Positions 49,545-63,689 of a stretch of DNA of 64,000 nt are shown one piece after another. The stretch is from Hyalangium ruber. GTDB taxonomy: Bacteria > Myxococcota > Myxococcia > Myxococcales > Myxococcaceae. Where the stretch lies: the NCBI RefSeq assembly GCF_034259325.1, contig NZ_JAXIVS010000007.1, positions 1 through 64,000 on the forward strand, read 5' to 3'. Within the stretch, counting starts at the first letter, position 1; each line of letters opens with the position of its first letter. Below the pieces are notes generated by a model. That model saw only the letters and a program-made list of their open reading frames with translations, searched no databases and had not been told where the DNA came from. The position numbers and the translations under genes were made by a program.

Positions 49545-52004
<2,460 letters not shown>

Positions 52005-52057
52005 TTGCTCGCCACCTGCCTGCTTGCCGACCGAGGTCGCAAGCCCCTAGGAAGTTA

Positions 52058-52086
52058 CTCGCATGCATGCCAGGCAGGCATGCGAG
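52058..52086. promoter_or_regulatory. Perfect inverted repeat upstream of lonV
   Basis: CTCGCATGC (52058-52066) and GCATGCGAG (52078-52086) form a perfect 9-base inverted repeat with an 11-base spacer. It lies 54 bases upstream of the lonV start. It is not a CIRCE element. It could be an operator or a leader hairpin. Confidence 0.4.
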
Positions 52087-52166
52087 GTGAAATACCGTTC
52101 TATAACACGGCCATTTCAGCCGCCGTTCCCCGGAGTAAAAGTGGGGACCCTCGACCTGCCATCAAG

Positions 52167-52193
52167 GGAACACCCGTTCTTCGCCGGGTGTCC
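52167..52193 (-). terminator. Hairpin after the S9 peptidase gene
   Basis: ACACCCG (52170-52176) pairs with CGGGTGT (52185-52191), just past the peptidase stop on the minus strand. The T-run is weak, so it is only a candidate. It sits between the S9 gene and lonV. Confidence 0.4.
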
Positions 52194-52203
52194 GCCTGCT
52201 CCT

Positions 52204-54417
52204 TCAGCGGGCTTCCGCCGTCGCTCCACCGGCGGGTCCCGTCATTCCGAACGTCTGGAAGAGAAAAGCGAACATGTCCGCGCTGGACTCGATGGCCTTG
52301 GCCACCTGGTCGGCGCCGGTATGGCCCGCGTTGGCCTCGATGCGCAGCAGCGCCTGCCCCGAGGGGCCCTGCGCGTTCTGCACCGCCGCCACGAACTTGC
52401 GCGCGTGCAGGGGGTCCACCCGGTCATCGTGGTCCGCGGACATCATCAACATGGGAGGGTAGCGCACCCCGGCCTTGACCGCGTGGTAGGGCGAGTAGGC
52501 GTGCAGGAAGCGGAAGTCCTCGGGCTTGTCGGCGGTGCCGTACTCGAGGATCCACGTCCGCCCGCTGCCGAACTGGTGGTAGCGCACCATGTCCAGCAGG
52601 GGCACCGAGCACACCACGGCGCCGTAGAGCTCCGGCCGCTGCGTCATCGCCGCGCCCACCAGCAGGCCCCCGTTGCTGCCGCCGTGGATGGCCAGCCTGC
52701 TCGCCTGGGTGTACTTCTCGCGCACTAGGTACTCGGCCGCGGCGTGGAAGTCGTCGAAGACGTTCTGCTTGCGGTGGAGGCGCCCGGCCTCGTGCCACGC
52801 CTTGCCGTACTCGCCGCCGCCGCGCAGGTTGGCCACCGCGTAGATGCCGCCGGCGTCCAGCCAGGGCAGAATGCTGGCGCGGAACGCCGGCTGCATGCTC
52901 ACGTTGAAGCCGCCGTAGCCGTACAGCAGCGTGGGCCGCTCCCCGTCCCGCTTGAGCCCCTTGAGGTGTACCAGGAACAGGGGCACCTTCGTGCCGTCCT
53001 TGGACGGGTAGAAGACCTGGCTCACCGTGTAGCGCTCGGTGTCCGCGGGCAGCTCCACCTTCGCCCACAGCTCGGACTTCCCGCCGGAGACGGACGTCTT
53101 GTAGACCTGCCGGGGGGTGGTGAAGGAGCTGAAGAGGAAGAAGGCCTCGTCCTGGTCCTCCTGGCCCACGAGGTTGCTGGCGGCGCCCACGCCGGGCAGT
53201 TGCACGGTGCGCACCGTCTTGCCCTCCAGAGTGGCCACGCGCAGCTCGCTGGCCGCGTCGCGCATGTACTCCAGCGACAGGTGGCCACCGACGAGGGTCA
53301 TGTTCTCCAGCGCCGCCACGGGGTCCTCGGGGACGATCTCCTTCCAGGCCGCGCGCTCGGGCTTGGAGGGCGAGAGGCGGAAGATGCGCTGACGGGGCGC
53401 GCCCTCATCGGTGAGGACGTAGAACTGATCCTTCCAGGCGACCACTTGGTACTTGGCGCCATCGCCCTTGGCGAGCAGGCGGAAGTCCTTCTCCCCCACC
53501 CGCTTCCAGTAGACGTCGTTCTCACTCCAGCCGCGCACCACGTAGGCGAAGAGGTACTTCCCGTCCCGGCTGAGGTCCGAGAAGAGGAAGGTGGTGGGGT
53601 CTCCCAGGCGCGGGTGGACCACCGTGTCCTTCTTCGGGTCGGTGCCCAGCGTGTGGAAGCGCACCTCGGTGTAGCCCGGCCGCTGGTCCACGGGGATGGA
53701 GGGGTCCACCGGCAGCCACTCGTAATAGAAGGCCTTGTTGTCGGGCGTCCACTTGGGGGTGGCGTACTTGCCACCTTCGATGACGTCCACCTGGGACCAG
53801 GTGCCGGTGTCCACGTCCAGAACGTGCAGCACGGCCTCGTCCGCCGCGTTGGGCCTCTGGGCGAAGGCCACCTTGCGGCCATCCCAGGAGGGCACCCAGA
53901 CGCCGAGCGACACCGTGCCGTCCTTGCTCCAGGTGTTCGGGTCGAGCAGCACCTTCTCGGCGCCGTGTTCACCCTCGCGCCAGTAGACGATGGCCTTCTC
54001 CTTGTCCTTGTGCGTGCGGGCGTAGAAGAAGCGGTTGCCGTAGCGCACCGGCGCGGAGATGGAGTCCACGTAGAACAGCTCGCGGAAGCGCCTGGCGAGC
54101 GTGTCTCGGCCGGGAGCCTTCGCAAGCCAGTCGCGCGTGAAGGCATCCTGGGCCTTCATCCACGCCTGCACCTCCGGGGCCTTCTCATCCTCGAGCCAGC
54201 GGTACGGATCGGCCACCGCGACACCGTGCAGGGTGTCCACGATGGGCTCCGAGCGCGTCGCCGGATACGCCATGCGCTGTGCTCCTTCTTGTACAGACGA
54301 AGCCGCCCTGGGAGGCGACGTGGGAGATGCCGCGGAAGGGAGCTCTTCACGCGTGGCCTCCTTCGGGCCAGTGCAGGCGGAGAGCATCAGCATCGCGGAG
54401 AGCAGGAGTCTCTTCAT
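52204..54417 (-). CDS. Prolyl oligopeptidase family (S9) lipoprotein
   Basis: The 737-residue protein has a lipobox LSAC (Cys15) near the N-terminus, a seven-bladed propeller (about 60-450) and a C-terminal alpha/beta-hydrolase domain. The catalytic Ser is in [10 protein letters not shown], Asp in [12 protein letters not shown] and His in NAGHTGADQ. Prolyl oligopeptidases cut short proline-containing peptides. Lipobox plus Ser predict an envelope location. It sits between clpX and lonV in the tig-clp-lon cluster. ATG 54417 starts the signal; the frame opens to 54603 without similarity. Confidence 0.9.
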
Positions 54418-54634
54418 CGACGATTCCAGATACAGGAAGGGCCACGCCCGTCCCACAAAAAGTGCGGGCGGGCCACCGTGCCCCACCCCTCGCTCGGTGG
54501 CACAGGAGGCATACACCCTCCCCCGCCCCGCTCCCAGCGGGAGACGGTAGAAGCGCGCGAGGCGCGCCGGAGCCGCTCTCGCGGTCCTGACGCGCCCCGT
54601 CATGCGTGGCCTGCCCGGAGGGAAGGCCGGTCCG

Positions 54635-55912
<1,278 letters not shown>

Positions 55913-56049
55913 GATGCCCTCGCTGCGCTCCTCGGAAAGAAACCGCCCGGAAAACCCGCGCCCGTCCCAATCTAGTCAGCCCCGATCCGGAACGTCCATT
56001 CACCTGCGGGGTAGTTAACAGCAGAAATTCTCCACCGCAGGAAGCACAA

Positions 56050-56087
56050 GGCCGGAGGCGCGGGGAATCATTCCCACGGCTCCGGCC
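56050..56087 (-). terminator. Hairpin after clpP
   Basis: GGCCGGAG (56050-56057) pairs perfectly with CTCCGGCC (56080-56087), and GGGAA/TTCCC pair inside. It is 30 bases past the clpP stop and upstream of clpX. The following TTGTGCTTC is only weakly T-rich, so it may give partial termination between clpP and clpX. Confidence 0.5.
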
Positions 56088-56116
56088 GTCTGCCTCACTA
56101 CGGGGCGCGCACGCGC

Positions 56117-56737
56117 CTACTTCTTCTCGTCCTTACCCACCGCCGTCGGCTTCCGGGGGTTCTGGATCTCGTCCAGGATTCCGTACGCCTTCGCCTCGGT
56201 GGCGCCCATGAAGTAGTCGCGGTCGGTGTCCTTTTCGACTCGCTCGAGCGGCTGGCCGGTGTGCTTGACGATGAGATCGTTCAGCTTGGCCCGCATGCGC
56301 AGGATTTCCTTCGCCTGGATCTCGATGTCGGTGGCCTGGCCACGCGCGCCGCCCAGCGGCTGGTGAATCATGATGCGAGCGCTCGGCAGGGCGTAGCGCT
56401 TGCCCTTCGCCCCGGCCAGCAGGAGCACCGCGCCCATGGAGGCCGCCTGGCCCACGCAGATGGTGGAAACCGGGCACTTCACGTACTGCATCGTGTCGTA
56501 GATGGCCAAACCCGCGGTGACCGAGCCACCGGGCGAGTTGATGTAGAGGTTGATGTCCTTGTCCGGGTCCTCGGACTCCAGGAAGAGGAGCTGGGCGACG
56601 ATGGCGTTGGACACGTCATCGTCGATCTCCGTGCCGAGCATGACGATGCGGTCCTTCAGGAGCCTGCTGTAGATGTCGTACGAGCGCTCACCCCGGTGGG
56701 TCTGCTCGATGACGTAGGGAATGGGCATGAAGGGCAT
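56117..56737 (-). CDS. clpP: ClpP protease subunit
   Basis: The 206-residue serine protease forms the proteolytic chamber with ClpX. The catalytic triad is visible: Ser in [10 protein letters not shown] (about 100), His in [11 protein letters not shown] (about 125) and Asp in KDTDRDYFM (about 174). Translation starts at ATG 56737 (another ATG at 56728 is three codons in). It follows tig with a 30-base gap. Confidence 0.97.
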
Positions 56738-56767
56738 GTCGTCCTCGGAAAATCGCGTCAGAAGGGC

Positions 56768-58042
56768 CTAGGAATACTTCGCCTGAGCCTTCAGGAATTC
56801 AATCGTCTTTTCTTCCCTCAGTCGGAGGGACAACCCCAGGCGATCATCGGGGCGCTGGAAGTACTTCCGAACGTTGGCTACTGGCTGCCCGGCCTCGTTC
56901 GCCAGTTCTTCGATCTTCTTCTCGATGTCCTCCTCGCCCGCCTGGATGCCCTCCTTCTGGGCGATGGCCTCGAAGAGCAGCGTGCCCTTCACCTCCTGGA
57001 CGGCGCGCTCGCGCATCTCCTCGCGCAGGCGCATGAAGTCCAGGCCGAGGTTGCGCACGTCCAGGCCCGAGCGGGCCATCTGCCGCATCGCGCCCTCGAG
57101 CATGGAGTCGATGGCGCGCTCCACCATCGCCCGGGGGACCTCGAAGGGGTTGCGCTCGACGAGGCCCTTGATGAGGGCGTCGCGCTCCTCGACCACGGCC
57201 TGGTTCTTCTTGGAGCGCTCCAGGTCCTCCTTCACCTTGGTGCGCAGCTCCTCGAGGCTCGCCGCGCCAATCTCCTTGGCGAAGTCGTCATTGAGCTCCG
57301 GCACCACCTTGGTCTTGATGCCCTTGAGGTTCAGCTTGAAGCGCGCCGTCTTGCCCTTCACCTCTTCGACCCGGTAGTCGGCCGGGAAGACGTAGTCGAT
57401 CTCCTTGCTGTCGCCGACCTTCACGCCCTCGAGGGCGGCGATGTTGGAGTCCACCAGCTCACCGGGGGCAATCTCCACCACCACGTCCTCGGCCTTGCTG
57501 CCGGGGAAGGGCTTGCCGTCCACGTTGGCCTCGTAGTCCACGCTGGCGAAGTCGCCGGCGCGCGCCACGTCCCGGTCCGCCACGGGCTCCATGCGGCTCT
57601 GGTTCTGGCGCATCTTCTCGAGCTGCTCGGTGACCTGAGCGTCATCGACGGCCGTCTCGTTCTTCTTGAGCGCCAGCTCCTTGTAGTCCTTGGGCTCCAG
57701 CTTGGGCTTCACTTCCACCCGCGCCTCGAAGCTGAAGGGAGCGCCCGCCTTGAGGCCGGAGTTGGTGACCTGGGGCTGGCTGACGGCCTCCACGTTGTGC
57801 TCGCGGATGGCCTCCATGTAGGCAGTCTGCACCACGCGCTGGATGACGTCGTCTTCCACCTGCTCGCGGAAGCGCTGCTCGAGGATGCGCCGGGGCACCT
57901 TGCCCTGGCGGAAGCCGGGCAGCTTCACCTGCCGGCCCACCGCCGCGTAGGCGCGCGTCAGCTCGTCGGCCACGCGCGTGCTGTCGACCTCGATGGAGAG
58001 CTTCTTCTCGACCGGAGACAGCTCCTCGACCTGGACCTTCAT
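56768..58042 (-). CDS. tig: Trigger factor
   Basis: The 424-residue ribosome-associated chaperone has an N-terminal ribosome-binding domain with [18 protein letters not shown] (GFRxGxxP motif, about 43-60), a central PPIase (FKBP) domain and a C-terminal chaperone region. It is the first gene of the tig-clpP-clpX-lonV cluster, a common bacterial order. Confidence 0.96.
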
Positions 58043-62630: not shown

Positions 62631-63689
62631 TCAACCCACCACGTCGATTCCGGGACGGCCTCGCTGCACCTCGCCGATGAGGGCGACATCCACCCCTGCC
62701 TTCTCCAGGGCGAGGAGGGCCTTGCGGATGTCGCGCGCGGGCACGGAGGCCAGGAGCCCTCCGTTGGTCTGCGCGTCCGCGAGCACCCACTGAATCTCCT
62801 CGGGAAGTCCCTCGGGGAACCGTACGTGCTTGTGGACGTGGGCGAGGTTGGCCTTGGTCCCCCCGGGCACCACGCCCTGCGAGGCCAGCGCCGGCACTTC
62901 CTGGATGATGGGGATGCGCTCCAGCGACAGCACGCCCCGGGTCTTGGAGCCCTTCATCATCTCCAGCAGGTGCCCCAGCAAGCCGAAGCCCGTCACGTCC
63001 GTGAGCGCGTTCACCTTGAACTTCCCCGAGGCGAACGTCTCTCCCGCGGCGCGGTTGAGCGCGGACATCACCCCCACCACGCGCTTCATCAGCGCCTTGG
63101 AGGCCACGCCCCGTTTGATGGCCGTGGTGGCGATGCCCGAACCCAGCGGCTTGGTGAGCAGCAGCACATCACCCGGCTTCGCGCCCGAGTTGGTGAGCAC
63201 CTTCTTGGGGTGAACCACGCCGGTGACGGCCATGCCGTACTTCGGCTCGGGGTCCTGCACGCTGTGGCCGCCCAGAATGGGGATGCCCGCCTCGTCCGCC
63301 TTGGACTGCCCGCCGGCGAGGATCTTCGAGAGCATCTTCAGCGGCAGTTCCTTGGGGAAGCCCACCAGGTTGAGCGCGAACAGCGGCCGCGCTCCCATCG
63401 CGTAGATGTCCGACAGCGCGTTGGCCGCGGCGATGGCGCCGAACTGGAACGGGTCGTCCACCACCGGCGGGAAGAAGTCGACCGTCTCCACCACCGCCAG
63501 CCCGGGCGTGAGGCGATACACGGCCGCGTCGTCGTTGGTGGAGAAACCCACCAACGCCTGAGGTGCCTTCGCGGTCTTCAAGCGGCGCAGGACCTGCGCC
63601 AGATCGGCGGGCCGGATTTTAGCCGCTCAGCCCGCACAGTGACTGAGCTCCGTCAACCGCTTGGGCTTGGGCTGCAGGGTGTCGGCCAT
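62631..63689 (-). CDS. selD: Selenophosphate synthase, itself a selenoprotein (in-frame UGA)
   Basis: The protein makes selenophosphate from selenide and ATP for Sec-tRNA and selenouridine. The reading frame from ATG 63689 has 352 codons before the stop, with TGA at codon 21 (63627-63629): MADTLQPKPKRLTELSHCAG-U-AAKIRPADL. The U falls exactly where other SelD proteins have the catalytic Cys or Sec, followed by the conserved Lys. Downstream DVTGFGLLGHLLEMM, GILGGHSV-type and TNGGLLAS regions are typical. A SECIS-like hairpin (63584-63600) lies 26 bases past the UGA. Automatic start calling would place the gene at a TTG after the UGA (63581), losing the active site. Confidence 0.93.
63584..63600 (-). 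promoter_or_regulatory. Bacterial SECIS-like hairpin for selD
   Basis: On the minus strand GGCGCAGGTCCTGCGCC forms a 7-base stem with a three-base GUC loop. The GCAGGUC core resembles the E. coli fdhF SECIS apical hairpin (GCAGGUCUGC). The loop lies about 33 bases past the UGA, within the range described for bacterial SECIS elements. Confidence 0.75.

Follow-up and report, generated by a model that had tools for sequence, protein, structure and literature searches.

The selD gene of Hyalangium ruber very probably (about 97%) encodes the selenoprotein form of selenophosphate synthetase, in which selenocysteine (Sec) would be inserted at an in-frame UGA codon with a hairpin. The window analysed is a stretch of 64,000 nucleotides from one contig (C7) of the H. 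ruber genome (G000; 10.77 Mb, 43 contigs). The features that matter for this reading are given below.

62631..63689, minus strand: selD, selenide water dikinase, 352 amino acids with predicted Sec at residue 21; TIGR00476 match with one in-frame TGA.
63627..63629, minus strand: UGA codon, putative Sec21, at the catalytic Cys/Sec position; the 90 SelD genes of the family have TGA, TGC or TGT here and no other codon, and structure 3u0o has Cys at the aligned position.
63630..63689, minus strand: N-terminal 20 codons ahead of the UGA, MADTLQPKPKRLTELSHCAG; codon-difference counts point to translation of codons -11 to -1.
63583..63601, minus strand: predicted SECIS hairpin, 8-bp stem UGGCGCAG/CUGCGCCG, triloop GUC; supported by pairing over the Sec rows and in agreement with published bSECIS rules.
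63591..63593, minus strand: apical triloop GUC, in which G precedes U, in line with the bSECIS rule; loop G and T invariant in 46 Sec rows.

Elsewhere in the window, positions 49545-58042 (minus strand) presumably hold the lon, prolyl oligopeptidase-like, clpX, clpP and trigger-factor genes, in an ordinary order.

Reading from ATG 63689 on the minus strand, the selD frame runs MADTLQPKPKRLTELSHCAG-UGA-AAKIRPADLAQVLRRL... to a stop ending at 62631, with a single internal TGA. When this TGA is read through, the product scores 392 bits against NCBIfam TIGR00476 (cut-off 125) over profile positions 1-309 of 311. The TGA aligns with the cysteine of the SHGAGC motif in the solved SelD structure 3u0o, which we take to be Cys17 of E. 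coli SelD. This alignment, together with Cys codons in 61 of the 90 family genes, bears out the first-pass annotation, which had placed the UGA at the Cys/Sec site of SelD.

SelD rows were obtained from 90 of the 96 family genomes, and the site codon was TGA in 29, TGC in 57 and TGT in 4, with nothing else. With the same TGA shared by 29 of these genes and a Cys codon at the site in the remaining 61, the catalytic-site TGA of selD is evidently more than chance. Forty class outgroup genomes outside the family had a SelD match with an E-value of at most 1e-60, in some cases a partial one; 39 of them carried one TGA and G137 none, and the site codon in 20 of the 40 was TGA in 19 and TGC in one. 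Named loci, the 80 best relatives that a single query found in GTDB genomes, comprised 50 with TGA and 30 with TGC or TGT; the loci from Pyxidicoccus, Citreicoccus and Anaeromyxobacter carried the Sec form, those from Myxococcus and Corallococcus the Cys form. As TGA is only one base away from TGC and TGT, a Cys codon turned into TGA by recent mutation or by a sequencing error might be suspected in H. ruber, but a TGA common to 29 family genomes and to 39 of the 40 matching class outgroup genomes makes the probability of such an origin negligible.

The stretch ahead of the UGA was then compared with that of 28 Sec relatives, codon by codon. Codons -11 to -1 showed 166 synonymous versus 34 nonsynonymous differences; therefore, this stretch appears to be translated. 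Codons -21 to -12 (31 versus 204) and the region upstream of ATG 63689 (21 versus 503) vary freely. By these counts, purifying selection acts on codons -11 to -1. Third-position GC is 0.90 ahead of the UGA and 0.91 behind it. These data bear directly on the possibility that the UGA is a true stop, with SelD being a pseudogene or translated from a later start such as TTG 63581. The longest table-11 frame does begin at that TTG and spans 316 amino acids. However, such a product would lack the catalytic Cys/Sec as well as the Lys downstream of it in 3u0o; in 61 family relatives the frame continues across the site with a Cys codon; and no further stop interrupts the rest of the frame in any of the 29 family TGA genes. 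With the codons ahead of the UGA under purifying selection as well, termination at this codon is very unlikely.

The genome of H. ruber contains the Sec machinery. A tRNA-Sec gene lies at C21:143277-143371 (72.4 bits) and is called SeC by ARAGORN, with anticodon tca (UCA); selA and selB were found on C31 (566.8 bits) and C3 (306.9 bits), respectively. The absence of these three genes had been named in the first-pass annotation as a finding that would speak against Sec; the search was run, and all three are present. Its inference that the UGA is read as Sec thereby gains support, as it does from the purifying selection ahead of the codon. From this genomic evidence, it is almost certain that the selD UGA encodes selenocysteine. 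Within the family, tRNA-Sec, selA and selB occur together in 26 of the 29 genomes with TGA SelD and in 55 of the 61 with Cys SelD. Among the TGA-SelD genomes, no tRNA-Sec was matched in G048 (90% complete), no selB in G082 (82%) and none of the three genes in G083 (87%). A second tRNA-Sec-like gene (59.5 bits) was observed at G007:C1:5182915-5183007, about 22 kb from the first.

SelB binding, Sec insertion and SelD activity are inferred from the established bacterial pathway, by which translation would start at or near ATG 63689. SelB with GTP and Sec-tRNA(Sec) (anticodon UCA), anchored at the hairpin (63583-63601), would insert Sec at UGA 63627-63629 to give SHCAG-Sec-AAK. Sec21 would then stand in place of the catalytic cysteine, and SelD would make selenophosphate, which SelA would use for the conversion of Ser-tRNA(Sec) into Sec-tRNA(Sec). 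SelD would thus supply the Sec pathway with selenophosphate while being itself one of its products.

The hairpin GGCGCAGGTCCTGCGCC proposed earlier at 63584-63600 is indeed there, and an extra U-G pair extends it to 8 bp (63583-63601). Its stem is U-GGCGCAG / CUGCGCC-G; it begins 25 nt past the UGA, with the GUC loop at 33 nt, and has an energy of -12.2 kcal/mol. The accessible text of PMC13188914 gives four bSECIS rules (a stem of 4-16 bp, a loop of 3-9 nt with G in its first two bases, a distance of 16-37 nt from the UGA and an energy of -7.5 or lower), and the H. ruber hairpin agrees with all four; set against this consensus, its 8-bp stem, its 3-nt loop opening with G, its distance and its energy show nothing outside the rules. 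Some hairpin within the energy rule is also found in 20 of the 61 family Cys genes; therefore, this rule alone is unspecific. The folding energy of the 60-nt stretch with the hairpin is ordinary for its composition (z -0.36), and synonymous-codon reshuffling gives a marginal value of 0.043 for H. ruber. The 0.05 level in this reshuffling was passed by 13 of the 29 family Sec rows (16 did not), by 12 of the 19 outgroup Sec rows and by 7 of the 61 family Cys rows. Because energy tests on a single hairpin fall short of proving a SECIS alone, they are not our main argument, and the case for a selD SECIS rests on comparative evidence. An Rfam scan of the selD region gave no meaningful hairpin match; its one weak hit, to a human lncRNA, was rejected at E 6.

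Pairing was compared over 46 Sec rows (43 distinct) and 62 Cys rows, with the Sec rows G134 and G139 left out. In the Sec rows, 98.3% of the stem cells are paired, and the value falls to 25-53% when one side is slid. Pairs 2 to 7 are standard in all 46 Sec rows. Among the 62 Cys rows, pair 3 is standard in 34, pair 4 in 21 and pair 7 in 13. Two pairs have changed on both sides, in five cells of the Sec rows; column shuffles reached two such pairs in 5 of 500 trials and five such cells in 0 of 500. Hence, by this comparison the stem is under selection in the Sec genes and decayed in most of the Cys rows, and it is the pairing of the stem that sets Sec and Cys selD genes apart. The GCAGGUC core, which the first-pass annotation had likened to that of fdhF, is present in H. 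ruber, but it proved weak evidence, as GCG-CAG-GTx also occurs in Cys-type relatives, Myxococcus xanthus AM003 among them.

Three of the Cys genes within the energy rule have a hairpin in this region. A 6-bp stem with a GUC loop remains at the old hairpin site in G059 and G066, and G054 has a strong 11-bp stem (-19.6 kcal/mol) near it. Remnant SECIS-like structures in Cys genes descended from Sec genes are mentioned in the part of PMC1794560 available to us.

Synonymous differences among Sec relatives number 21 over the 7 hairpin codons, 116 over the 8 codons just before and 288 over the 45 after; the corresponding numbers among Cys relatives are 67, 202 and 581. Differences per codon are thus lower in the hairpin than in its flanks, and the contrast is stronger in Sec than in Cys relatives, though partly confounded by codon bias. 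Selection is seen on both sides of the UGA. It could still be argued that the UGA is read as an ordinary amino acid by a near-cognate or suppressor tRNA, the hairpin being a by-product of the peptide LAQVLR and its GC-rich codons. Many hairpins do arise from GC-rich codon use, and the observed energy is matched by about 4% of reshuffled draws for H. ruber and by 15-30% for some relatives. The complete Sec machinery, the compensatory changes in the stem and the deficit of synonymous differences in the hairpin, more marked in Sec relatives, all go against this explanation. So do the far outgroup Sec rows G134 and G139, in which an 8-bp hairpin lies closer to the UGA by 6 nt (with the GUC loop again in G139), though neither beats the synonymous null (0.28 and 0.18). 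Ordinary readthrough is accordingly even less probable than a true stop, and Sec insertion at the UGA is the reading that we retain.

The exchange between Sec and Cys was traced on a protein tree, built with the N-terminal part containing the site and hairpin left out and rooted on far families. Its best count is seven Sec-to-Cys changes, six of them inside the family, and none in the reverse direction. A Sec root costs 7 and a Cys root 10, on a tree where some branches have support of 1 and 16; a gain of Sec from Cys in SelD, considered as a possibility, was rejected on these costs and the zero reverse count. The family DNA tree of selD (with four outgroups) gives four Sec-to-Cys changes because the Cys rows of g6 and g19 are joined in it. 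We take it from these trees that, within one family, the Myxococcaceae, Sec in SelD was probably exchanged for Cys on four to six occasions. For comparison, PMC1794560, in its accessible part, counts 15 Sec-to-Cys events over all families studied; the available text of PMC13188914 describes such events as rare and as mostly affecting FdhA and SelD. The opposite change, from Cys to Sec, is documented for the SelD of Pasteurellales in the portion of PMC4561486 at hand.

A search of the H. ruber genome with TIGR01553 gave no TGA-bearing FdhA among the matches listed, and SelD was considered as the sole selenoprotein of this organism. This was rejected when two further UGA-bearing genes were found.

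G000:C4:794915-795115 (locus L216:1483-1716, minus strand): SelW-like gene, MSAAKITITYCNAUGY...; TIGR02174 53.3 bits, cut-off 34.2.
G000:C22:25366-25731 (locus L256:402-917, minus strand): AhpC-TSA peroxiredoxin with in-frame TGA, FTPGU-TREL, predicted Sec at the peroxidatic site.

In the SelW-like gene of H. ruber, a 7-bp SECIS-like hairpin whose loop is CGUGU lies 21 nt past the UGA. In the family, 74 genomes have a SelW-like match over the cut-off, each with one TGA inside, and two weaker second copies have none. The 7-bp stem is at the same place in 13 of 19 computed genomes and missing in 6. The peroxiredoxin gene, the only AhpC-TSA gene of H. ruber with a TGA among the matches listed, has a GGAC-loop hairpin 23 nt past the UGA. 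Its counterparts in seven other genomes have Cys (TPGC, TSGC or TGGC), and G040 has U. Both UGA genes, each with a SECIS-like hairpin, add to the case for Sec at the selD UGA. A second AhpC-TSA gene with an in-frame TGA (DTPG-U-TAEG) and an 8-bp hairpin behind it was observed at G040:C29:125606-125977 (L258), where the H. ruber counterpart (L268) has Cys. Gene callers on plain table 11 would be expected to end the three UGA genes of H. ruber at the stop or to start them late.

Twenty-three genomes possess the three machinery genes, a Cys SelD and a Sec SelW-like gene, with no Sec FdhA among the matches listed, so that SelW-like is the only Sec gene found there among the families SelD, SelW-like and FdhA. 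At least two of these 23 (G077 and G060) hold a further gene, thioredoxin-like (AhpC-TSA/Redoxin) with an in-frame TGA (WAPG-U-HAC), at G077:C1:4747600-4747947 (L266) and G060:C1:4876872-4877216 (L267); we regard it as a candidate selenoprotein. In the accessible part of PMC1794560, FdhA or SelD is stated to be in every selenoproteome. The 23 genomes go against this generalisation as there worded, softly, since the absence of FdhA holds among the matches listed.

Five genomes (G037-G039, G024 and G049) have the three machinery genes and no Sec gene in SelD, SelW-like or FdhA among the matches listed. In G036, a member of the same group as G037-G039, SelD is still there in its Cys form and all three machinery genes are missing. 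The clade G036-G039 (genus g8) may be losing the Sec trait. Organisms with SelD yet no known selenium trait are described in the part of PMC5029168 available. It was also observed that all four g8 genomes have a Cys SelD and no SelW-like match; that G037-G039, with machinery present, show no UGA gene in SelD, SelW-like, FdhA or AhpC-TSA among the matches listed; and that the peroxiredoxin of G036-G038 has Cys, in parallel with SelD.

Outside the Myxococcota, pairs 2 to 7 occur at exactly the same place in 20 of 30 Sec SelD genes (15 of 20 in Gemmatimonadota) and in 0 of 22 Cys genes, among the best 80 relatives, an uneven sample. This shared place counts in favour of Sec in selD, but since Bacteroidota, where there is no Sec row, make up 17 of the 22 Cys rows, the contrast is confounded with kinship. 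Geomesophilobacter (Thermodesulfobacteriota) has the stem in other letters, GGCTCAA/TTGAGTC.

Taken jointly, we lean towards viewing the Myxococcaceae as a natural replicate series for giving up Sec: Sec-to-Cys exchange in SelD would have occurred four to six times, with hairpin decay in most Cys rows and the machinery usually kept by other selenoproteins (in 23 genomes apparently SelW-like and other small redox proteins, with no Sec-SelD or Sec-FdhA detected), against the published rule. The SelD hairpin may be inherited across phyla, holding the peptide LAQVLR in place. The family matters more than selD itself, a gene of an expected kind, as it offers close relatives with Sec and Cys forms of one enzyme. 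The exchange is repeated, in one direction and with the machinery mostly kept, which makes two questions directly testable: what is gained from selenocysteine in SelD, and what sustains the Sec trait once SelD and formate dehydrogenase need no Sec. Many close relatives are cultured aerobic soil bacteria. Repeated Cys swaps and a mostly lost hairpin in close relatives also make the H. ruber case unusually clear.

The SECIS of E. coli fdhF has a GCAGGUC core and a small G-U loop on a short stem, with a bulged U in the upper stem and the hairpin about 11 nt past the UGA. The H. ruber selD hairpin resembles it in the core, the small G-U loop and the short stem. Unlike it, the H. ruber stem is a perfect 8 bp with no bulged U and starts 25 nt past the UGA, which places it outside the fdhF type as defined by the bulge and the spacing.

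Selenophosphate synthetase is listed as a selenoprotein family in the accessible portion of PMC1088965, and SelD is a selenoprotein in many organisms according to the available text of PMC12013277, where no word beginning with Myxo occurs. In the literature searched, no relevant paper was found on SelD or selenoproteins of myxobacteria or Myxococcota, Myxococcus xanthus and Corallococcus included; large supplementary tables may include these genomes. The selenoprotein SelD of Anaeromyxobacter dehalogenans appears in Table 3 of PMC1794560 (2006), as far as that source was available. H. ruber SelD is similar to it in having a predicted Sec at the catalytic site, a UGA with a downstream hairpin and the Sec machinery, and Anaeromyxobacter loci share the same hairpin. 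In contrast to the Anaeromyxobacter motif AGUACK, with Cys two past Sec, H. ruber has AGUAAK with Ala there, and in addition a Cys three before Sec (CxxU); both the Ala and the CxxU Cys are also found in Desulfosporosinus and hence are not unique. The Cys-type SelD of Myxococcus xanthus, Corallococcus and others is homologous, with the same residue position, but has TGC or TGT where H. ruber has TGA, and its stem is decayed in most rows. Sec-form SelD is thus already known from other bacteria, and the H. ruber gene adds a probable member.
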